Below, piece after piece: positions 1-8,257 of a stretch of 8,257 nt of DNA. Position 1 is the first letter of the stretch; each line of letters opens with the position of its first letter. The DNA lies in contig JAGLTP010000603.1 of assembly GCA_023135215.1 (NCBI GenBank), positions 1-8,257 of the forward strand. The letters are read 5' to 3'. The translations under genes and the position numbers were made by a program. The notes beneath the pieces are model-generated. The model made no database searches and had not been told where the DNA came from. It saw only the letters and a program-made list of their open reading frames with translations. This DNA comes from Candidatus Heimdallarchaeota archaeon. Lineage in GTDB: Archaea > Asgardarchaeota > Heimdallarchaeia > Heimdallarchaeales > Heimdallarchaeaceae.

Positions 1-68
1 ACTGAGAATTGTTTTTGCATTTTTCCTTTATTATCATCCTGAGAAGGAAGAACTTCAAACTCTGACAT
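1..68 (-). CDS. Possible start of a divergent gene, product unknown (partial)
   Basis: Reading leftwards from an ATG at 68-66, the minus strand stays open to the window edge for 22 codons. It encodes a hydrophilic, mixed-charge peptide beginning MSEFEVLPSQDDNKGK. Just upstream is GTGATC, which matches the tail of the archaeal Shine-Dalgarno consensus but sits unusually close to the ATG. A TATA-like TTTATAT lies around 100-108, at a plausible distance. The layout suggests a gene divergent from the large membrane-protein gene at 196. The fragment is too short to show any family, and chance openness over 22 codons is quite possible. Confidence 0.35.
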   Translation of the reverse strand, partial: MSEFEVLPSQDDNKGKMQKQFS

Positions 69-163
69 CGAGATCACTTAAGAAAAAATAGAAGCTAATA
101 AGATATAAAACTTACTTGATATGCAATTCATTAAACAAAAGGCTAAAATTTCTTTTAACTGAA

Positions 164-173
164 TTTTTAAATA
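164..173 (+). promoter_or_regulatory. Candidate TATA box for the large membrane-protein operon
   Basis: TTTTTAAATA is centred about 27 bases before the ATG at 196. With usual archaeal TATA-to-start spacing, transcription would begin at or next to the start codon, giving a leaderless mRNA. This agrees with the lack of a well-placed Shine-Dalgarno site: the only purine cluster, GGAAG at 177-181, is too far upstream. The region is generally AT-rich, so the call is tentative. Confidence 0.35.
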
Positions 174-195
174 ATAGGAAGTATAAAATAATAAG

Positions 196-2904
196 ATGGA
201 AGTCAAGAAAGAGAAAAAAATTCATACCTATTTGTCTAATATATTCTATTATTTATTTGTAGTTTTAGTAGTAGCAATATTGGTATTCTCCTTAGTTATA
301 GAAGGATCTGTTGCACTTTTAGTTTTATTAAATATACTGTCAATTTCATTAATAGTGGTCTCAGTTGTTATTACTTTTTATCTTGCAACTCAAATGTTAA
401 GATATAATCTGACAGTGAGAAAGAAAGTTCAGATTGGTGTATTTCTGATAGTTATTGGTTTTTTGTTAATTCTAAGTTCATTTATCAAGCAAATAACTTT
501 TGGTGAAAGTTTTTTAACTTCCGTTCTCGGAGATACATTCTTTGTTTATTGGGGGATAGGAGCCATTGTTGTAGGTATATTCATTGAGTTGACTTTTCTG
601 GATCAAGGAATCTGGGAACTAATAAAAAAGCCTTTGAGATTTTTATGGAACACACTTGTCTCCTTCTTCAAATGGATTAAAACTCACTGGAAAAACATTA
701 TCCTTTACTCCCTAGATGTTGTTTCTTTGGCAATAATTATCTATGTTGTAGTAACTTGGGAAATTGTAATTTGGAAGTTAATTATCTTATCATTAAGCTG
801 TGTTTATCCTATCGCTCATCATTACAGAAGAATATGGAGAGCAATACGATTTATCGCAGTTGATGTCTTTTATAGAATATTCTATGAAATTGCTGTAATA
901 GTAAAAAGAATATCTGTAGGAGTTTGGAATGCTATCATTTCGTTTTTCAAATTTATTGGAAAACACTGGTGGATTATTTCGAAGGAATTTATACGAATAG
1001 CTGCTATCTTCACTCTGGGTATTATCTTCTGGATTTTTGTTGTGCTAAACTTCTATGCAGGTTGGGTGATAATGTCTATTATAATCTTTCAAGCTTTCAC
1101 AAGACGATTTATCCTAAAAGCTATCTTTAAAGCATTAAAGTTCTCAATTAAGAAAATAGCAGCATTTTTCAAGAAATATTGGAAGAAAATTGTTGCAGAA
1201 TTAACTAGACTAATTTTCTTTGCAACAGGAATAGTCATAATTGTTCTGACTGGATTGGAAATTTGGTTCTTTATTCAGAATTATTTCTATGGAATAGGTA
1301 TAATAATTGCGTTGATCGCAGAAGTTTTTTCTAGAAGAGCTGTGTGGCGGTTTATAATAAAACACAAAATAGCTTCTATAAGAGTGATGGGAATACTCAT
1401 AGTTGTTCTTGGTGTAGTACTAGAATTTACATTAGAGGATTATGTTAATTGGCTTCCTCTCACATCATCTTTAATGGCAATTGGAGCATTTATAACAATT
1501 TTTGCTCGAATAATCGTTGAACCAGTTTTAATACTCAATTTTCTGAAAGCAGTAGGAAGGATAATAAAAAAAGCAGCAGTTGCATTATATAATTTCCTTA
1601 AGAAAAATTGGTGGATTTTTCTCAAAGAGTTCATGCGATTAGCAGCTATTATTGCTTTGGGGATTATATTCTGGATTTTTGTAGAACCAAATCTTTATGC
1701 AGGATGGATAATATTATTCATTATAGTTTTTCAAACATTAACACGAATATTTATCCTTAAACAGATTGGACGTTTCTTCAAACATGTTGGTTTATTACTG
1801 AAAGATTTTCTTGTATGGATGACACGACCAATAAGATATATTTGGAGCGTATTCGTTAATATTCTGCGATTCTTTAAAGAGAATTGGTTAAAGGTTCTTC
1901 TCCATACTTTAGATATTGTTGCTATTGTAGTAATAATCTATTTCTCAATCCAAATTTCAAAAAGCTTTGAATGGTGGTATACAATCATTATAGCTGTCAG
2001 TGTATTATATGTTCCAATTCATCATTACAGAACAGTGTGGAGAGGCATCAGATTCATTGCAGTAGATGTTTTCTATAGGTCTTTAAATGCTATTTATAAT
2101 TTTACTAGAAGTATTCTGAAAGGAATATGGAATAGATTGGTTGCCTTAGCTAATTTCATTAGAGAACACTGGTGGGTTTTTCTAAAAGAGTTTTTACGAC
2201 TTACAGGAGCTACAATAGGCTTTTGGTTTATTCTTATATATGCAGATAAAGGAGGAGAAGGAATCAACTTCGGTGCTGTTACTGATCACTTAATCTGGAT
2301 AGGGATAATTGTCATTGTAGTTAGTTTACTCCTTTCAAGAAAAGCTGTTCTGAAATACTTCTATAATACTCTCAAATCTGTGGTTAAAACTTTAGTCAGA
2401 CGTAGAGTGATAATCTTCAGAATATTTGGGCTTGCAGCCGTCATATATGGAATTGTTATATCATTCATTCAGAGTTGGAATATAGCTGCAATACTCTCTC
2501 TATCAATAGGTGGAGTATTCTTACTTTTTGGCCATTGGATATTCCATCCAAAGAGATTCTGGGAATTCCTGAAGAAAATACCAAAGGTAATCAAGAAAAT
2601 ATTAGACACAATTTGGCTAACAATACGGTCATTTGCTATTTATGTTTTTGATAATTTTATCTGGCTAGTTCTGCTTTTGACTGTGTTAGGATCTGCCGCT
2701 TATGGTCTTTCCTTAGTTATTGGAGTTGATTTTCTGCAAACACCAATCGGAGATTTAGTTCACTGGACGATGGCAGCAATTGGAGGAGGATTAATCCTAT
2801 TAGCCGTTGTTGCTTTATTATTGCTTCAACGTCAATTTAAAAAACTAAGAACTGGAAGCTCAAGAGTGTTAGCAAAACAAATCAAGGAGAGGTGGCAAGA
2901 ATGA
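196..2904 (+). CDS. Giant polytopic membrane protein with internal duplicated modules, function unknown
   Basis: This 902-residue protein belongs to no family I recognise. It has about 22 hydrophobic stretches, mostly paired as short hairpins. They are separated by amphipathic linkers rich in Lys, Arg, Trp and Phe, which are likely cytosolic by the positive-inside rule. Modules recur. A block with HHYR..WR..IRFIAVDVFYR occurs at residues 208-227 and 609-628, with 17 of 20 positions identical. A block with WW...KEF.R occurs near 258, 472 and 659. An SR(R/K)AV segment occurs at 379 and 714. The end is basic and hydrophilic (881-902). There is no signal peptide, catalytic motif, nucleotide-binding site or transporter signature. 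Its stop overlaps the start of the RING-type membrane protein gene (ATGA, 2901-2904), so the two are probably co-translated. Possible roles are scaffold, membrane-shaping protein or channel-like assembly, all inference. The gene itself is secure because it is long, open and has conserved repeats. Confidence 0.92.
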   Translation: MEVKKEKKIHTYLSNIFYYLFVVLVVAILVFSLVIEGSVALLVLLNILSISLIVVSVVITFYLATQMLRYNLTVRKKVQIGVFLIVIGFLLILSSFIKQITFGESFLTSVLGDTFFVYWGIGAIVVGIFIELTFLDQGIWELIKKPLRFLWNTLVSFFKWIKTHWKNIILYSLDVVSLAIIIYVVVTWEIVIWKLIILSLSCVYPIAHHYRRIWRAIRFIAVDVFYRIFYEIAVIVKRISVGVWNAIISFFKFIGKHWWIISKEFIRIAAIFTLGIIFWIFVVLNFYAGWVIMSIIIFQAFTRRFILKAIFKALKFSIKKIAAFFKKYWKKIVAELTRLIFFATGIVIIVLTGLEIWFFIQNYFYGIGIIIALIAEVFSRRAVWRFIIKHKIASIRVMGILIVVLGVVLEFTLEDYVNWLPLTSSLMAIGAFITIFARIIVEPVLILNFLKAVGRIIKKAAVALYNFLKKNWWIFLKEFMRLAAIIALGIIFWIFVEPNLYAGWIILFIIVFQTLTRIFILKQIGRFFKHVGLLLKDFLVWMTRPIRYIWSVFVNILRFFKENWLKVLLHTLDIVAIVVIIYFSIQISKSFEWWYTIIIAVSVLYVPIHHYRTVWRGIRFIAVDVFYRSLNAIYNFTRSILKGIWNRLVALANFIREHWWVFLKEFLRLTGATIGFWFILIYADKGGEGINFGAVTDHLIWIGIIVIVVSLLLSRKAVLKYFYNTLKSVVKTLVRRRVIIFRIFGLAAVIYGIVISFIQSWNIAAILSLSIGGVFLLFGHWIFHPKRFWEFLKKIPKVIKKILDTIWLTIRSFAIYVFDNFIWLVLLLTVLGSAAYGLSLVIGVDFLQTPIGDLVHWTMAAIGGGLILLAVVALLLLQRQFKKLRTGSSRVLAKQIKERWQE
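628..1128 (+). repeat. Internal protein-level duplication, copy 1 (residues about 145-311)
   Basis: Residues 145-311 comprise a KPLRFLW-type linker, an HW..., LD..., IIIY hairpin, the HHYR...IRFIAVDVFYR motif, then a HWW...KEF.R hairpin. The same order recurs about 399-401 residues later (1825-2235). The 60 bases encoding the IRFIAVDVFYR block (817-876) match 2020-2079 at about 47 of 60 positions by hand count. Differences are largely at third codon positions, which indicates an old duplication kept under protein-level constraint. Confidence 0.85.
1600..1770 (+). repeat. Extra copy of the WW...KEF.R hairpin module (residues 469-525)
   Basis: Residues 469-525 align without gaps to residues 255-311 (bases 958-1128). 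By hand count 37 of 57 are identical, including WW, KEF.R, LGIIFWIF, YAGW and the TR.FILK ending. The offset is 214 residues rather than about 400. The protein therefore grew by more than one duplication rather than by a single halving event. Confidence 0.85.
1825..2235 (+). repeat. Internal protein-level duplication, copy 2 (residues about 544-680)
   Basis: This is the second copy of the block at 628-1128: an RPIRYIW linker, NW..., LDIVAIVVIIY, HHYR...IRFIAVDVFYR and HWW..FLKEFLR in the same order. After residue about 670 it diverges into a different hairpin containing a Gly/Glu-rich loop (ADKGGEG, 683-689), which the first copy lacks. Confidence 0.85.
2889..2894 (+). promoter_or_regulatory. 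Shine-Dalgarno site that sets the start of the RING-type gene
   Basis: GAGGTG lies inside the last codons of the upstream gene, six bases before the ATG at 2901. It is a full match to the archaeal anti-Shine-Dalgarno core. It overlaps the in-frame GTG at 2892, which therefore cannot be the main start. This favours ATG 2901, which overlaps the upstream TGA as ATGA and points to translational coupling. Confidence 0.75.
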
Positions 2905-4256
2905 GTGAAGATAAAACTAAACTCAAAGAAAGAAAAACTAGAAATCCAGATATAATTATTTTCTGGATTGGATTAGTTATCTCTCTTATCGGGATTATTT
3001 CTACAATAGTATTATCGATCGCTCTTCAACTAGATACTGATGATTCTCGATTTAGAGCTGTTCTATCAGTGTTCATTTTTGGTGTATTGATACTTGGATT
3101 TGGATTAATTGTTAGAAGGTTGCGAAGAAAAGGAATAGAGGACTTTGTATTAGGTGCAATAACAGCATTCCTTGGTTTTATTCTTCTATACTTTCCAGTT
3201 CTTATGTTTGTAATGGGTATAGATGATTTATTCGTTAAACAATATCCATATTATCTGATGATGGTTGGAGGAGTATTAGTGATAATTTTCGGATATTTCA
3301 TGGAAGTATATGACCTAAACATCAAATTCTTACAGATGATGAAAAGGATGAAAGAAGTTCTAAAAAGAATGCTAGCAAGGATAAATTGGAAATTACTCAG
3401 ATCTCCTTGGAACTTCTTCTCTTTAATGGGTTTAACTGTTATCATTCTTACTGTAATAGGAATTCTAACCTCTCGATATTACCACATTGCAGGAGCTGGT
3501 TTGATTTTATTCAACTTTATATTTCACTTTAGAAAGGAATTAGCTGAAATATTTAAGACAATAGGAAGAATACTGGAAACTATTGCACAAGCTTGGTGGA
3601 AGGTAACAAAACAGATACCAAGAATTTTGAAGAGATTTTTCCAATGGATATACAATCCAGAAAGATTCAAAAAAATTATGCGTTGGATCTGGAAACAGAT
3701 AAAGGTAATTGGTAGGTCAATAAAATACATCTTTGTTAGAAATTATCTGATTCTATTCATTTTTGGAGTAGTATTGTTCTTTGTTTTACCTAAAGATGTC
3801 CTCAATTTTGAGATAAGACTCGCAATTTCATCATTAGTTTGTTTAGTAGCTTTTGTTAAACCAATTTTAGACTGGCGAGAATACTTTGGAGAGGATGTAA
3901 GCTCAGCAAGGACATTCCTGTATAAAACATCAACAAAAGTAACTAAAAGGTTGAAAAGAAGAGTAATAATCAGGTGTCCATACTGTAATTATCCAAATAC
4001 AAGTCAAAGAATGGATTGCTGGAATTGTACTAAAATGCTACCAAGATGCAAGATCTGTAATTCATTTGTAGAACAAGGAACAGAAGTGGCAGTTTGTCAG
4101 CACTGTGATAATATCTATCATGAAAACCACCTTCGTACATGGCTAAGATTAAATCCAAAATGCCCAATGTGTAAAGAAGAGATAGAAAAAATAGAAACAG
4201 AAGAGCTAATAATAGAGTCAGATGTGCAGGAACCAGAGGGTGAGGAAGTACCTTAA
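2901..4256 (+). CDS. Polytopic membrane protein with C-terminal zinc ribbon and RING/PHD-class zinc finger
   Basis: Starting at ATG 2901 the protein has 451 residues. About eight hydrophobic segments (near 18-42, 51-72, 82-106, 117-136, 172-191, 194-210, 282-297 and 305-323) are separated by basic amphipathic linkers, one of them long (about 211-281). An AWWK...IPR linker resembles the WW...KEF.R linkers of the upstream protein. The soluble C-terminus carries a C4 zinc ribbon (C359, C362, C373, C376). It is followed by a cross-brace finger with ligands C383, C386, C399, C402, H407, H410, C421 and C424. The spacing (CX2C, CX2C-X4-H-X2-H, CPMC) is closer to PHD/RING-CH than to classical RING-H2. 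An acidic tail follows from about 425. Proteins of this layout in eukaryotes, such as membrane RING E3 ligases, transfer ubiquitin. Here ligase activity is only inferred, and a structural or protein-binding zinc domain is an equal alternative. The gene is the second of a coupled pair. Confidence 0.9.
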   Translation: MSEDKTKLKERKTRNPDIIIFWIGLVISLIGIISTIVLSIALQLDTDDSRFRAVLSVFIFGVLILGFGLIVRRLRRKGIEDFVLGAITAFLGFILLYFPVLMFVMGIDDLFVKQYPYYLMMVGGVLVIIFGYFMEVYDLNIKFLQMMKRMKEVLKRMLARINWKLLRSPWNFFSLMGLTVIILTVIGILTSRYYHIAGAGLILFNFIFHFRKELAEIFKTIGRILETIAQAWWKVTKQIPRILKRFFQWIYNPERFKKIMRWIWKQIKVIGRSIKYIFVRNYLILFIFGVVLFFVLPKDVLNFEIRLAISSLVCLVAFVKPILDWREYFGEDVSSARTFLYKTSTKVTKRLKRRVIIRCPYCNYPNTSQRMDCWNCTKMLPRCKICNSFVEQGTEVAVCQHCDNIYHENHLRTWLRLNPKCPMCKEEIEKIETEELIIESDVQEPEGEEVP

Positions 4257-4315
4257 TTACTCAAGAATAAAGGTTTACAATTTTTCGATTGATGTGGATT
4301 TGGTTTACAGAATTG

Positions 4316-5650
4316 CTACTTTTTCTTATTATCATATTTATATATTTTTTCTACTATAGCAAAGAAAGAAGCAAAAATTAACACAGCAGCACCAATATAA
4401 ATAAGTAGTTCAGCATTTCCACCAAATCCTAGAATTGCACTGCCTACAATACCACCTAAACCAAACGATAATATTCCAGCTAATTGTAATCCCATAATCA
4501 TGGATTCTTTACTAGGTTTATGTTCATGGACATGAGAATGAATTCCAAAAGAGAATCCTTGTCCCCTACTCATTGAAATATTAAGATGTCTATGTTCATG
4601 ATGAACCTTATCATCTGATAATTCTGTATCAAAATAATTTTCCATTTCTAGAATAGCAATATTCCTTGCAGGTTCCATTAATGATTCACCTATACCTACA
4701 ATAGCAAAAAGAAAAAGAACACCTACCCATGGATAAACTAGATTGTACCCAATAACTCCTGATCCTTTGATAACCATACTTAGAGCCATAGGTATCCAAG
4801 AACCCATTTTATCGACTAGTTTACCCGTAAAGATCTGCGCTAATCCCCAAATTGCATCACCGGTAAAAAATATCAAGGAAATTTGGATTTTCGATATTCC
4901 ATGCGAAGAAAGAACAAGAGGAAGGTTTGGAGTATATATCCCATGAGAAAAATCATAAAGTGTATAAATTATCAGAAGGAGAACAAAAGGTAGAAATTTA
5001 AACAATCCCTTAAGATTTTCAAGGTGAAAATGAGGTATTGCCATACTGTCAACTTCAAACATTTTAGCTCTTGTGCTTCTGTGACTAATAAAAGCAAGAA
5101 TAACTGAAACTATAGCTAGAAAAATTCCTATTAGAAGAACTAGTTGAAAGGGGGAAAAAATCCAGAAAGCTCTTTCTCCAAAAATAGTCTCTTCGAATAA
5201 TCCTGCTAATCCTTGACCAATAGCTCCACCAAAAAAAATACTCCCAAAAAGAGTTCCAACTGCTTCTCCTTTATTATTTTTAAAAAATGTATCAGAAAAA
5301 TTGAGTATGGCAATTATGAGTAAACCGTAACCTAATCCTTCAAAGAAACGAGCAATAATAACAGTAACTAGAAAAGGTAAAAACATGGAAATTAAACTAG
5401 AAAACCACATTAGCATAACAATAAAAAATGCTGATTCGCTTCTACCACAAATTCTCGCTAAGAAAATCAATCCAATAACTTGTCCTGCTGCATATAATAC
5501 TGAAGTGATGGAAACTATAGCTTCACTTCCTCCTAAAGCAACTACCTGGAAGGGGAATAACAAACGAGCTAATCCGATACCAAGTGATGCAAGCAGGATT
5601 TGCAAAAAATGAAGAAAGAGTCTTCTATCTTGAAATAAAAGGATTTGCAA
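4316..5650 (-). CDS. MFS transporter with a histidine-rich loop
   Basis: This 444-residue protein has about twelve hydrophobic segments in two halves, split by a loop around 190-215, as in the major facilitator superfamily. The second half keeps motif A between TM8 and TM9 (GKLVDKMGS, 276-284). The matching loop in the first half is degenerate (ARICGRSES). The R-P-F-Q-type ending of TM1 and the EP-R element at 326-329 also suit MFS carriers. The loop between TM10 and TM11 is unusually long and histidine-rich: H350, H351, H353, H355, H371, H373, H375 and H377, next to Asp and Glu. This suggests metal sensing or transport, but substrate and direction are unknown. The start is a TTG at 5650 with a weak AGGGGT about ten bases upstream. 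A second in-frame TTG lies at 5605, and no ATG or GTG is available upstream. The gene converges on the RING-type gene and diverges from the SPFH gene. Confidence 0.9.
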   Translation of the reverse strand: MQILLFQDRRLFLHFLQILLASLGIGLARLLFPFQVVALGGSEAIVSITSVLYAAGQVIGLIFLARICGRSESAFFIVMLMWFSSLISMFLPFLVTVIIARFFEGLGYGLLIIAILNFSDTFFKNNKGEAVGTLFGSIFFGGAIGQGLAGLFEETIFGERAFWIFSPFQLVLLIGIFLAIVSVILAFISHRSTRAKMFEVDSMAIPHFHLENLKGLFKFLPFVLLLIIYTLYDFSHGIYTPNLPLVLSSHGISKIQISLIFFTGDAIWGLAQIFTGKLVDKMGSWIPMALSMVIKGSGVIGYNLVYPWVGVLFLFAIVGIGESLMEPARNIAILEMENYFDTELSDDKVHHEHRHLNISMSRGQGFSFGIHSHVHEHKPSKESMIMGLQLAGILSFGLGGIVGSAILGFGGNAELLIYIGAAVLIFASFFAIVEKIYKYDNKKK

Positions 5651-5699
5651 GATTACTTTAACCCCTAACGATTTTCTAGGTATGCGTTTTCTGTTTTTT

Positions 5700-5713
5700 A
5701 TTTATATCTTTGG
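5700..5713 (-). promoter_or_regulatory. BRE/TATA promoter of the MFS transporter gene
   Basis: Read on the minus strand this is CCAAAG followed by ATATAAAT, a good archaeal BRE-plus-TATA pair. It predicts a transcription start near 5675-5680 and a leader of about 25-30 bases before the TTG at 5650. The TATA octamer is identical to the one proposed for the DUF998-like gene. Confidence 0.5.
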
Positions 5714-5768
5714 TTTGATAAATGAAAGTAAATGTTAAATCTAGAGGGAGAGGAGGCACATTAAATAC

Positions 5769-5777
5769 CTTTAAAAG
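5769..5777 (+). promoter_or_regulatory. Candidate TATA box of the SPFH gene
   Basis: CTTTAAAAG at this position would place the transcription start near 5797-5803. That leaves a leader of about 40 bases containing the GAGGT ribosome-binding site at 5828-5832. A second TATA-like string, TTATAAAT (5816-5823), lies too close to the start codon to drive an mRNA that contains this site. The call rests on spacing and composition only. Confidence 0.35.
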
Positions 5778-5838
5778 TGAGTTTTACAATATTTTGATTT
5801 AGAACCGACTTAAGGTTATAAATTAAAGAGGTATAAAA

Positions 5839-6822
5839 ATGGTTGAAGTAATTGAATGGGCAACAGGGCGTGGAGACGAAATAATGTACCGACATCCCCG
5901 AGATACAATAAACTGGGGAGATCAGGTAAATGTGATGCCTAACCAAGTCGCAGTATTCATAAAAGACTCTATCGCTTATGATGTTCTTAAATCAGGAAGA
6001 CACTTTATGAAAACAAAGAATATTCCACTATTGACAACATTTCTATCAAAGATTGTTGGTTTTGATAAATCACCATTTAATTGTCAAGTGATTTTTCTAT
6101 CAATGAGCGATTTTCAAGGAAAATTCGGTGGAAGAAGTCAAACACAAGAATTAGCACCATTGCAATTCTTTGGAGATTATTTCTATAAAGTAGCAGATCC
6201 ACAAAAATTCGCATTCGAAATCGCAGGAAACAGAGACATCTTTACAACATCTGCTTTCAATGATTTCTTTAGATCGTTCGTAGTTGAATCAGTTATTAGT
6301 AAGTTATCTGAAAAAGGCATTGTTGATGTGATGTCGAATCTAGGTAAAACCTCTGATTCCATCGAAAAGGAAGTCAAAGGCGATCTATTGGAAATGGGTG
6401 TAAATCTAAAGAACATGAAGTTCGGTGGAATCGATACAACTCCAGAATACAGAGACAGACTGTTCTGGATGAGATCTGGTGTATCAGCAGGCCAAGTCCA
6501 ACAATATGCTGGAATGGCTCAAGTAGCTGAAGCTCTCCCTGAAGGTGGAAGTGGATTAACAGGTGCAGTAATGGTAAACAATCTTTTCTCAAGAAGCGAA
6601 ATAAAGCAAGCTGACAAAATTGAGAAAAAAGGTGAAGTAGAAGCAGCATTTATCACATGCAATCAATGCAAAAAGAAAGTATCACCAATAGCTAAATTCT
6701 GTGGACACTGCGGAGATCCTACCGACGATGAGAAGAAAGGCGAAGTTAAATTCTGTACCGATTGTGGTGCTAAGAACGCCCCCGATGCTAAATTCTGCGC
6801 AAGTTGTGGTCATAAATACTAA
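5839..6822 (+). CDS. SPFH-domain protein (YdjI / virion-core-like) with two C-terminal zinc ribbons
   Basis: This 327-residue protein opens with the IEW.....D...YR.P element and INWGDQVNVMPNQVAVF of the YdjI-like SPFH branch. The SPFH (band 7) domain spans about residues 25-215. No N-terminal TM helix is present, so it is likely cytosolic or peripheral to the membrane. A Gly/Ala/Met-rich stretch (213-250) precedes two double-zinc-ribbon units: C274, C277, C288, C291 and C306, C309, C320, C323, each ending in an FC..CG knuckle. Family members form oligomeric membrane-linked assemblies. The Bacillus YdjI relative sits with PspA-type envelope-stress genes, but no PspA is visible here. The ATG has GAGGT six bases upstream and an in-frame stop just before it (5824-5826). 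Codon choice looks somewhat less AT-biased than in the membrane genes, which may reflect higher expression. The gene stands alone, divergent from the MFS gene and ended by a T-rich tract. Confidence 0.93.
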   Translation: MVEVIEWATGRGDEIMYRHPRDTINWGDQVNVMPNQVAVFIKDSIAYDVLKSGRHFMKTKNIPLLTTFLSKIVGFDKSPFNCQVIFLSMSDFQGKFGGRSQTQELAPLQFFGDYFYKVADPQKFAFEIAGNRDIFTTSAFNDFFRSFVVESVISKLSEKGIVDVMSNLGKTSDSIEKEVKGDLLEMGVNLKNMKFGGIDTTPEYRDRLFWMRSGVSAGQVQQYAGMAQVAEALPEGGSGLTGAVMVNNLFSRSEIKQADKIEKKGEVEAAFITCNQCKKKVSPIAKFCGHCGDPTDDEKKGEVKFCTDCGAKNAPDAKFCASCGHKY

Positions 6823-6860
6823 TCTTCTTTTCTTATTTTTTTATTTTCTTTTATCTTTCT
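6823..6860 (+). terminator. T-rich transcription terminator after the SPFH gene
   Basis: Directly after the stop codon comes a nearly pure pyrimidine stretch with a run of seven T (6836-6842) and several runs of three or four. Such tracts terminate archaeal RNA polymerase without a hairpin. It overlaps the last codons of the minus-strand ABC-2 remnant. Confidence 0.6.
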
Positions 6861-7090
6861 GATAATTTTGTCAATAAAATTCCTATTATCAATAGACCAA
6901 CACCAAAAGTCAAACTTATTCCAATATCTATCCAAGCTATTGCTACATTGTTTGTTTTCATTGAAGCTCTCTATGCCTCTACCATATATGTCAATGGCAG
7001 CATCTTTGAGATTACGTTTATAACAGGTAATCCTGAAACATCAAAGAAAGCACTACTAAGAAACATCATTGGAAAAGCTATAAAAATTTC
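6851..7090 (-). pseudogene. Remnant of an ABC-2-type permease C-terminus
   Basis: The minus strand from 7090 down to a TAA at 6853-6851 encodes 79 residues interrupted once by TAG (6973-6971). The first part contains FPMMFLSSAFFDV, then ISKMLPLTYMVEA. In intact ABC-2 permeases this pattern (FP.hFLSG.FFP, then PLTY.v.alR) marks TM5 and the loop after it. The TAG falls where these proteins have Leu before Arg-Ala. Beyond it, residues 41-79 read as the final TM helix (ISLTFGVGLLIIGILLTK) with a basic end. The front four TM helices are absent, because the intact DUF998-like gene ends immediately upstream. It is therefore a truncated, broken gene of an exporter membrane subunit. No ATPase gene is present. 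Recognition is by motif only, and the fragment has no start codon or ribosome-binding site of its own. Confidence 0.72.
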
Positions 7091-7816
7091 CTACTGCAGT
7101 GCCTGTTGTATCAATGCTCGTTTTTTTTCATATAGATAAGCACCGATTCCTTGTAATCCGTAAACAAGAGTAACTATAAAAATGAAAATTGTGTGTCCTC
7201 CTCGACGAGTCATTGAAAATAATGGTTGTCCATATATTGTCCCCACAATTACTGCTGTTAATAATAAGATGGTAACAACAACCATAGCTAAATATGAATA
7301 AGCGTTTAATCTTGGAAAATCTTTCTCAATAAAGAATACGATTGTATAACATAGGATTGCAGTAAACAGGAAAGCTGGACCTGAAAAGACGAATTTCAAA
7401 TGTGCAGTTATTCGAGTATCTGCTGGTGAGAATGCTATTCCTAAATAAAGAACAAACTGAACGATACCACAGAGGGATCCAAAGATGCTTAACCACTTGG
7501 TCGACCTTTTCTTTTGGAAATATTTCCAAATAAGAGAATAAAATCCTAATACAATAATTGCCATCATAGTTAAAGCGCTAGCATAAAGTGCAAATGAAAT
7601 AGTATTTGATTCTCCATTATAAGCTGTTGTTCTACCTAAATCACTAATGGGATTGTACAATAGGTTAAAACCTTCTGCTGAATAATCTTGCCAATGTCCT
7701 CCGGGATAGAAATTAATAGCAAGACCAAAAAGAACAATAACAATTACTGAAATACAGGCAAGTGTAAGAAAAACAAATTGCAATCTCTTTTCTTTCTCCA
7801 AAACAATCCTCTTCAA
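7091..7816 (-). CDS. DUF998-like six-TM membrane protein
   Basis: This 241-residue protein has six hydrophobic helices near residues 14-37, 71-97, 107-130, 142-163, 173-195 and 207-229. The loop after TM1 contains YPGG (37-40) and NPISDLGRT (55-63), and a FSPAD.....H motif (129-139) precedes TM4. These are the marks I associate with DUF998 membrane proteins, which have no established biochemical role. The assignment is from motif and topology, not a search. The start is a TTG at 7816 with no Shine-Dalgarno site. No ATG precedes it in frame, so a short-leader transcript is likely. The stop is TAG at 7093-7091, and the ABC-2 remnant continues in the same frame directly after it. The gene is divergent from the flavin-binding gene, with a 105-base shared promoter region. 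Confidence 0.82.
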   Translation of the reverse strand: MKRIVLEKEKRLQFVFLTLACISVIVIVLFGLAINFYPGGHWQDYSAEGFNLLYNPISDLGRTTAYNGESNTISFALYASALTMMAIIVLGFYSLIWKYFQKKRSTKWLSIFGSLCGIVQFVLYLGIAFSPADTRITAHLKFVFSGPAFLFTAILCYTIVFFIEKDFPRLNAYSYLAMVVVTILLLTAVIVGTIYGQPLFSMTRRGGHTIFIFIVTLVYGLQGIGAYLYEKKRALIQQALQ

Positions 7817-7857
7817 GTATTTTAAGCTGAAATTATGATTTTGAATATCTCAATATA

Positions 7858-7865
7858 ATTTATAT
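7858..7865 (-). promoter_or_regulatory. Candidate TATA box of the DUF998-like gene
   Basis: ATATAAAT on the minus strand predicts a start near 7833-7836, about 20 bases before the TTG. The octamer equals that of the MFS promoter, but no clear BRE precedes it. The surroundings are very AT-rich, which limits confidence. Confidence 0.38.
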
Positions 7866-7881
7866 GCAATTAATTCATCTA

Positions 7882-7889
7882 CTTATAAG
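7882..7889 (+). promoter_or_regulatory. Candidate TATA box of the flavin-binding gene
   Basis: CTTATAAG, a perfect palindrome, would place transcription starting near 7910-7914. That gives a leader of about ten bases without a Shine-Dalgarno site before ATG 7922. An alternative AT-rich box, GATAAATAAATAT (about 7898-7910), is too close to the ATG for normal spacing. Confidence 0.3.
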
Positions 7890-7921
7890 ACATGTTTGAT
7901 AAATAAATATTGGCGTTTGTA

Positions 7922-8257
7922 ATGAACAAGAAAAACTTCTCATTTTCATTCATTGAAAAGATGGTTAGAACTAAAACATTTGGGATTATTAACACAGTTA
8001 ATCAAGATGGATCTCCTCATTCAACAGGGGTTCTTTATGGAGTTTCTTCACCTGAAAAAAAATTTGCATTATATATAGCGACATCTAAGAAATACAAAAA
8101 AGCTGTAAATATCAAAAGAAATCCTACAGTTTCCTTCATTATTACATTTCCACATCATTATCTTAGATTCGCACCTTCTAGTACAATAACCTTCAGTGGA
8201 AAAGCAGAAATCCTTCCCTTTGAAAATAAAGAATTACTAGCGATTTTCTATGAAAAA
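7922..8257 (+). CDS. Pyridoxamine-5'-phosphate-oxidase-like FMN-binding split-barrel protein (5' part)
   Basis: The reading frame runs open from ATG 7922 to the window edge, giving 112 residues without a stop. The order of elements matches the N-terminal half of PNPOx-like split barrels. FGIINTVNQDGSPHSTGVLY (20-39) forms the first strands with the DG.PH turn. LYIATSKKYKKAVNIKRNP (50-68) is the usual phosphate-contacting T...K segment followed by the N.....P helix, and VSFIIT is the next strand. ITFSGKAEILP (89-99) is the G.A strand. Such proteins are cytosolic dimers that bind FMN, F420 or haem. Which cofactor, and whether it is an enzyme, cannot be told from this half. True PdxH is unlikely on sequence feel alone. 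A second in-frame ATG lies at 7961 but would cut into the fold's lead-in. The full length is unknown. Confidence 0.85.
   Translation, partial: MNKKNFSFSFIEKMVRTKTFGIINTVNQDGSPHSTGVLYGVSSPEKKFALYIATSKKYKKAVNIKRNPTVSFIITFPHHYLRFAPSSTITFSGKAEILPFENKELLAIFYEK

Follow-up and report, generated by a model that had tools for sequence, protein, structure and literature searches.

A candidate membrane-anchored RING-type ubiquitin ligase in Heimdallarchaeal Asgard archaea

An open reading frame, ORF2, in a stretch of DNA from a Candidatus Heimdallarchaeota archaeon (contig JAGLTP010000603.1, positions 1 to 8,257; this whole stretch of 8,257 nucleotides is called the window) encodes a multi-pass membrane protein whose tail carries a zinc ribbon and a RING finger. 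The protein is probably a ubiquitin E3 of the RING type, anchored in the membrane, from Heimdallarchaeal Asgard archaea, its ligase activity being what we infer from sequence, from structural models and from analogy with known ligases. Computation supports a conserved transmembrane domain and a predicted cytosolic ribbon and RING tail, with the RING fold, the ligands and the E2-contact residues (I385, W414 and P422) of archaeal operon RINGs, in relatives equipped with ubiquitin, an E1-type gene and E2s that carry a catalytic-type Cys.

The ORF2 frame runs on the forward strand from 2892 (GTG) or 2901 (ATG) to 4256. Residues are counted from the ATG at 2901, which is the start also of the orthologues P0002-P0005; the homologue alignment, A1, is numbered from the GTG at 2892 and thus gives residue numbers 3 higher. 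The features of the gene are as follows.

2901..4256, forward strand: ORF2, 451 amino acids, multi-pass membrane protein with C-terminal zinc ribbon and RING
2955..3869, forward strand: transmembrane domain of ORF2, residues 19-323, with about eight helices arranged in four hairpins (AlphaFold2 helices), with K/R-rich linkers on the tail side
3975..4028, forward strand: C4 zinc ribbon, C359/C362/C373/C376, with strands in the tail model
4047..4172, forward strand: RING finger of C4H2C2 type, C383, C386, C399, C402, H407, H410, C421, C424
4053..4055, forward strand: I385, E2-contact position, mapped by position (our own mapping) to I30 of Caldiarchaeum srfp
4140..4142, forward strand: W414, E2-contact position, mapped in the same way to W58 of srfp
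4173..4175, forward strand: K425, linchpin position, mapped in the same way to R69 of srfp

A linker joins the transmembrane helices to the tail, which has the pattern C359-x2-C362, C373-x2-C376, then C383-x-I-C386-x12-C399-x2-C402-x4-H407-x2-H410-L-x2-W414-x6-C421-P-x-C424-K425. An earlier note on the window had described twelve Cys/His ligands at 3975..4172, forming a C4 ribbon and an eight-ligand finger, on the tail of an archaeal protein with about eight transmembrane segments, and each of these points was borne out. Its coordinates and residue numbers are correct; a plain hydropathy scan gives seven segments in the window protein and eight in each of three close relatives, with the AlphaFold2 helices compatible with eight; and the homologues with a named organism all come from Asgard metagenome-assembled genomes. 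In 26 full-length homologues, with transmembrane boundaries set by hand, the loops on the N-terminal side hold on average 29.2 K and R residues per protein (minimum 22, tail excluded), against 2.2 (maximum 5) on the opposite side. From this excess, the N terminus, the linkers and the tail are predicted to face the cytosol.

The protein search for ORF2 gave 31 rows in A1, including the window's own protein, two of which end before the tail. All 12 tail ligands are identical in the other 29, where the eight ligands of the finger keep RING order and spacing, and I385, L411, W414 and P422 are invariant too; such a pattern is, on sequence grounds, not chance. The ratio of nonsynonymous to synonymous substitution (dN/dS) is 0.022 against locus L001 and 0.019 against L002 for residues 359-425, compared with 0.140 and 0.118 for residues 1-358, so purifying selection acts more strongly on the tail than on the remainder of the protein. 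Where the source name includes an organism, homologues are assigned to the Asgard group, Heimdallarchaeota, Heimdallarchaeaceae or Thorarchaeota, and two further matches from a contig search are likewise Asgard genomes; the family is Heimdallarchaeal/Asgard. Close orthologues (E < 1e-100) occur in 16 genomes of the phylum, and a few more genomes have distant full-length relatives.

As for the class of the finger, the earlier note had left it between RING and PHD. The RING part stands, through the Trp position and the fold neighbours; of the PHD part, ligand spacing alone fits, and a PHD finger (C4HC3 ligands) is ruled out, since ligand 6 is His in 29/29 rows and the PHD model scores 19.0 bits, below its cut-off of 24. 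The best Pfam model for both the window's tail and the cut-out finger is zf-RING_2, with 29.9 bits on the latter (cut-off 27.3). The RING fold appears in two AlphaFold2 models, full-length and tail, and the structural neighbours of the tail model are RING and U-box domains. The question raised in the note, whether the tail folds as two independent ribbons, was put to structure prediction, which returned RING neighbours instead; the finger is, by prediction only and judged by these neighbours rather than by visible zinc pairing, a RING cross-brace. In a single-sequence PDB search its best matches are E3 RINGs: 7p2k, an Arg-to-Cys mutant of Arkadia (1.9e-7), wild-type Arkadia (1.3e-6) and RNF165 (2.3e-6). 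The RING of the tail model superposes on the RNF165-UbcH5b~Ub complex at 1.7 A.

These RNF165/Arkadia-type proteins are eukaryotic, soluble E3s with RING-H2 ligands, and they match without a preceding ribbon, unlike ORF2. The RINGs of synoviolin and AMFR were matched by sequence in the same search (0.003 and 0.005), and no RING-CH of MARCH/Doa10 was among the matches. Hrd1/synoviolin, gp78/AMFR and MARCH/Doa10 share with ORF2 the combination of a multi-pass membrane protein and a cytosolic RING, but no homology between their transmembrane parts and that of ORF2 was detected: no Hrd1/gp78-type match was obtained with Foldseek or VIA (with a model pTM of only 0.42), and no Pfam transmembrane family scored above cut-off. 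ORF2 would work like these ligases rather than belong with them.

In its C4H2C2 spacing and key residues (Ile, Trp), the finger of ORF2 agrees with the small RINGs that Asgard ubiquitin operons encode. A comparison is offered by srfp of Caldiarchaeum, described in PMC5654768 as an E3 in vitro, in which I30Q abrogates and W58A and R69A impair ubiquitylation; the Ile and Trp are present in ORF2 as I385 and W414. The same source remarks on an additional Cys in srfp and on a displacement of its ligands 3 and 4 (C3/H4) by two residues, which fits the spacing seen in ORF2. Both proteins have a CxxC-x4-HxxH finger with Trp and CPxC, whereas srfp is small, soluble and encoded in a ubiquitin operon, and ORF2 adds a transmembrane domain and a ribbon and is encoded elsewhere. 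ORF2 is not itself srfp, because it is a 451-residue membrane protein which lies, in genomes G001 and G002, on a contig other than that of ubiquitin. A pattern scan detected small RING frames at 6/31 ubiquitin, E2 and E1 loci, none of the six in a close ORF2 carrier and none at the short E2/UEV loci of G001 and G002 (L003-L009). When four Asgard operon small RINGs were aligned with nine fingers from larger proteins, the eight ligands, the Trp and CPxC were common to all 13, and the E2-contact Ile position was occupied by Val in 3 of the 4 operon RINGs. One Asgard operon (L053:2177-2446, reverse strand, and the following frames) encodes in a row a small RING (90 amino acids), ubiquitin (98), an E2 (174) and an E1-type protein (358).

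The ubiquitin machinery was sought in 227 genomes of the phylum and 14 control genomes. E2 (PF00179) was matched in 168 and ubiquitin (PF00240) in 165 of the 227, and neither in any control, while the E1-type model PF00899 is unspecific, matching 12 of the 14 controls. The window holds no E1, E2 or ubiquitin gene by its reading-frame list and Pfam, as the earlier note had stated, and the search of related genomes carrying the gene, on which the note had made its proposal depend, came out in its favour: among close ORF2 carriers, E2 was matched in 16/16 and ubiquitin in 14/16. In 6/6 genomes examined for it, a ThiF/E1-type match lies no more than 200 bases from ubiquitin. Four distant carriers that were examined (G008, G033, G034 and G035) all have an E2 match and ubiquitin, the best E2 match of G008 being only 1.4e-9 and possibly UEV-like. 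A match to the A1 profile was found in 143 of the 227 genomes, with up to seven candidates scored per genome. Its co-occurrence with E2 (both in 141, module only in 2, E2 only in 27, neither in 57) gives a Fisher p of 4e-30, ignoring kinship, when any A1 match at E <= 0.001 is counted and the 39 unlisted E2-negative genomes are taken, by subtraction, as G188-G226.

One E2 type (ICVGVLGVDWTPAN) is shared by G001 and G002. G002 has also a second (NICLA...GWSPS), next to a gene in which a JAMM-like HSHP stretch occurs. A catalytic-type Cys is present in both types, which carry PF/PA or PY/PS at the RING-facing loops, PF/PA being likewise read as loop motifs. PY and PS stand at these loops as in PMC5654768. 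In G001 and G002, a UEV-like protein of 474 amino acids without catalytic Cys follows the ubiquitin and E1-type genes. Two catalytic-type and two UEV-like proteins have been reported for Heimdallarchaeota AB125 (PMC9192718).

Taken as a ligase, ORF2 would use its RING to recruit E2~ubiquitin to the inner face of the membrane and to prime the transfer of ubiquitin to substrates in the membrane or bound to it. These would be selected by its transmembrane domain, probably together with the partner ORF1, of about 20 transmembrane helices. The ribbon packs with the RING into one unit and may provide dimer or partner contacts. More speculatively, the products could feed UEV/ESCRT-type sorting or proteolysis, and a neighbouring SPFH protein could organise a membrane patch.

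Several observations weigh against assigning ORF2 to the E3 ligases. The full-length protein scores 23.4 bits with zf-RING_2, below the cut-off of 27.3. Residue 425 (K in 14 and H in 15 of the 29 rows; K in the window) is the weakest point of the E3 case. A distant homologue in G008 (L028) keeps the transmembrane domain with a degenerate finger that has lost several RING ligands, and the finger is therefore dispensable in some relatives. PF00179 also matches UEV-like proteins without Cys, the PF00240 search gave no ubiquitin match in the close carriers G017 and G024, and the ORF1/ORF2 pair lies outside the ubiquitin gene cluster in G001 and G002, on different contigs. Finally, the whole ribbon and RING unit finds its best structural and profile matches in subunits of IFT-A and GATOR2/SEA.

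Many A1 matches, among those listed, cover the ribbon and RING alone, on other proteins. The ligand pattern fitted at 29 of the 30 loci L010-L039, L028 being the exception, and the scan with this pattern yielded 34 modules, counting the duplicates of L001 and L002, from which two sets of 19 (A2 and A3) were drawn, omitting near-duplicates. As only stretches fitting the pattern entered these sets, ligand invariance is there by construction; Trp and the Pro of CPxC were not required and are invariant in 19/19 diverse modules. Pfam models at E <= 0.1 were zf-RING_2 (19 modules), DZR (19), zinc_ribbon_16 (17), zf-RING_16 (10) and Zn_ribbon_IFT122_C (4); we take zinc_ribbon_16 and zf-RING_16 to be derived from SEA/GATOR2 proteins. 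The ribbon and RING form one module that recurs on several Asgard proteins.

With the module profile against PDB, the RING part matches the Arkadia mutant (2.7e-9), RNF165 (4.5e-9) and EL5 (4.9e-8). Sixteen rows among the best 60 of 167 span the whole unit (profile positions <=13 to >=79), with WDR19 at 3e-8, a Leishmania IFT-A entry at 3.9e-7, WDR24 at 1.4e-5, IFT122 at 3e-5, MIOS at 3.7e-5, WDR59 at 4.2e-5, IFT144 at 1.5e-4 and others alike; three of the sixteen are labelled SEH1 or SEC13, and one simply 'WD40 repeat protein'. The ribbon half of the window alone has IFT-A entries and MIOS as its top rows, none significant (best E 0.11). The unit of ORF2 most resembles the C-termini of IFT-A and GATOR2/SEA coat subunits, in which it is structural. 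Like ORF2, the IFT-A (WDR19/IFT144, IFT122) and GATOR2/SEA (MIOS, WDR24, WDR59) proteins have a ribbon directly before a C-terminal RING, but they are soluble WD40/solenoid coat subunits; neither a WD40 propeller nor an alpha-solenoid was found in ORF2 by Pfam, AlphaFold2 or topology, a transmembrane domain standing in their place.

Because of this resemblance, the serious and main rival is that the ribbon and RING serve structural assembly, as they do in GATOR2/SEA and IFT-A, and join ORF2 to ORF1, SPFH or a further protein with ribbon and RING as part of a membrane scaffold that transfers no ubiquitin. The modules to which the two-domain tail is closest build junctions: in GATOR2, zinc-finger and RING domains stabilise C-terminal junctions (PMC12136191), and the RINGs of yeast Sea2-4 are needed for assembly, the E3 activity of that complex having been called open in 2021 (PMC8534245). 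We regard a purely structural role as rather unlikely, given that by sequence alone the RING is nearest to active E3s, that its finger is common with the RINGs of ubiquitin operons, and that the E2-contact position is Ile in 29/29 rows of the ORF2 family, compared with Leu in MIOS. Foldseek superpositions of the tail model on GATOR2 have a root-mean-square deviation of 7-10 A, and the relative placement of the domains therefore differs. The structural role and E3 activity are, moreover, mutually compatible. That the tail consists of independent zinc ribbons of the double-ribbon type, binding protein, lipid or nucleic acid and only superficially like a RING, is very improbable: Zn_ribbon_6 reaches 22.5 bits on the tail, DZR matches 19/19 modules (best 3.7e-7) and zinc ribbons also occur on the SPFH neighbour and on C-terminal extensions of some orthologues, but zf-RING_2 is the best model and matches 19/19 modules, the Trp and Pro invariant in all 19 lie outside the collection pattern, and the tail model has a RING helix and RING neighbours.

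Around ORF2, the window contains the following genes.

196..2904, forward strand: ORF1, 902 amino acids, about 20 transmembrane helices, with an ATGA overlap with ORF2 at 2901-2904
4316-5650, reverse strand: MFS transporter, next after ORF2
5839..6822, forward strand: SPFH/Band-7 protein with C-terminal zinc ribbons (Pfam Band_7_1 2.3e-20, Zn_Ribbon_1 1e-9)

The helices of ORF1 form hairpins whose linkers on one side are rich in K and R (76 versus 16 residues), and no known family was matched. In 14/14 close carriers with upstream DNA, ORF1 directly precedes ORF2 with overlapping or touching frames; it is split in two frames in G009, and a different multi-pass gene (14-20 transmembrane helices) takes its place in four distant carriers. 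The SPFH gene lies downstream of ORF2 in 10/10 close carriers for which the flank is long enough; one or two other genes intervene in some of them. A link between zinc-ribbon SPFH proteins and ESCRT-type systems has been described (PMC10936438, for YdjI at PspA loci), so an ESCRT-linked membrane patch would, by analogy, be a reasonable setting for ORF2. Some orthologues (P0015, P0017, P0018, P0021; L013, L014) carry an extra C-terminal double ribbon similar to those of the neighbouring SPFH protein (in G018, BLASTP 50% over 50 amino acids); this may hint at a shared partner. At 7094-7816 on the reverse strand, the window encodes a small membrane protein whose matches to DUF998 and Frag1/DRAM/Sfk1 fall short of the cut-offs; in several genomes, its relatives are found close to the SPFH gene.

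The ribbon and RING also end a widespread Heimdall-type protein of about 690 amino acids (L037:1474-1743 and L038:1498-1767, both forward strand; many frames among the matches listed), with a PCI (winged-helix) match of 28.1 bits in L038 (cut-off 22), which would be another candidate for an E3 or assembly role. Two modules per locus, on neighbouring or different frames, occur at L030:2340-2609 and L032:3021-3290 (both reverse strand).

A broader scenario can be offered only tentatively. The C-termini of GATOR2/SEA and IFT-A could descend from the prokaryotic ribbon and RING of Asgard archaea: an operon-type RING ligase would have gained a ribbon by fusion and then come to be attached to membrane proteins, winged-helix/PCI proteins and others, ORF2 being the membrane E3 beside SPFH, part of a pre-eukaryotic membrane ubiquitination linked to ESCRT sorting, and the module would later have become an assembly joint of eukaryotic coat complexes.

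Two things are new, as far as the literature was searched: that an Asgard multi-pass membrane protein bears an operon-type RING and belongs to a conserved gene pair, and that its ribbon and RING resemble the GATOR2 and IFT-A C-termini. With a small and soluble tail, and with E1, E2 and ubiquitin genes available from relatives, the ligase question is tractable in vitro. Eukaryotic membrane-bound E3 ligases underlie quality control in the endoplasmic reticulum, endosomal sorting and membrane signalling, and ORF2, from the archaeal group closest to complex cells, bears on the question of their origin. It offers a candidate case, open to experiment, of ubiquitination at the membrane of a prokaryote, and GATOR2 and IFT-A may owe one of their domains to an archaeal ribbon and RING unit such as its own.
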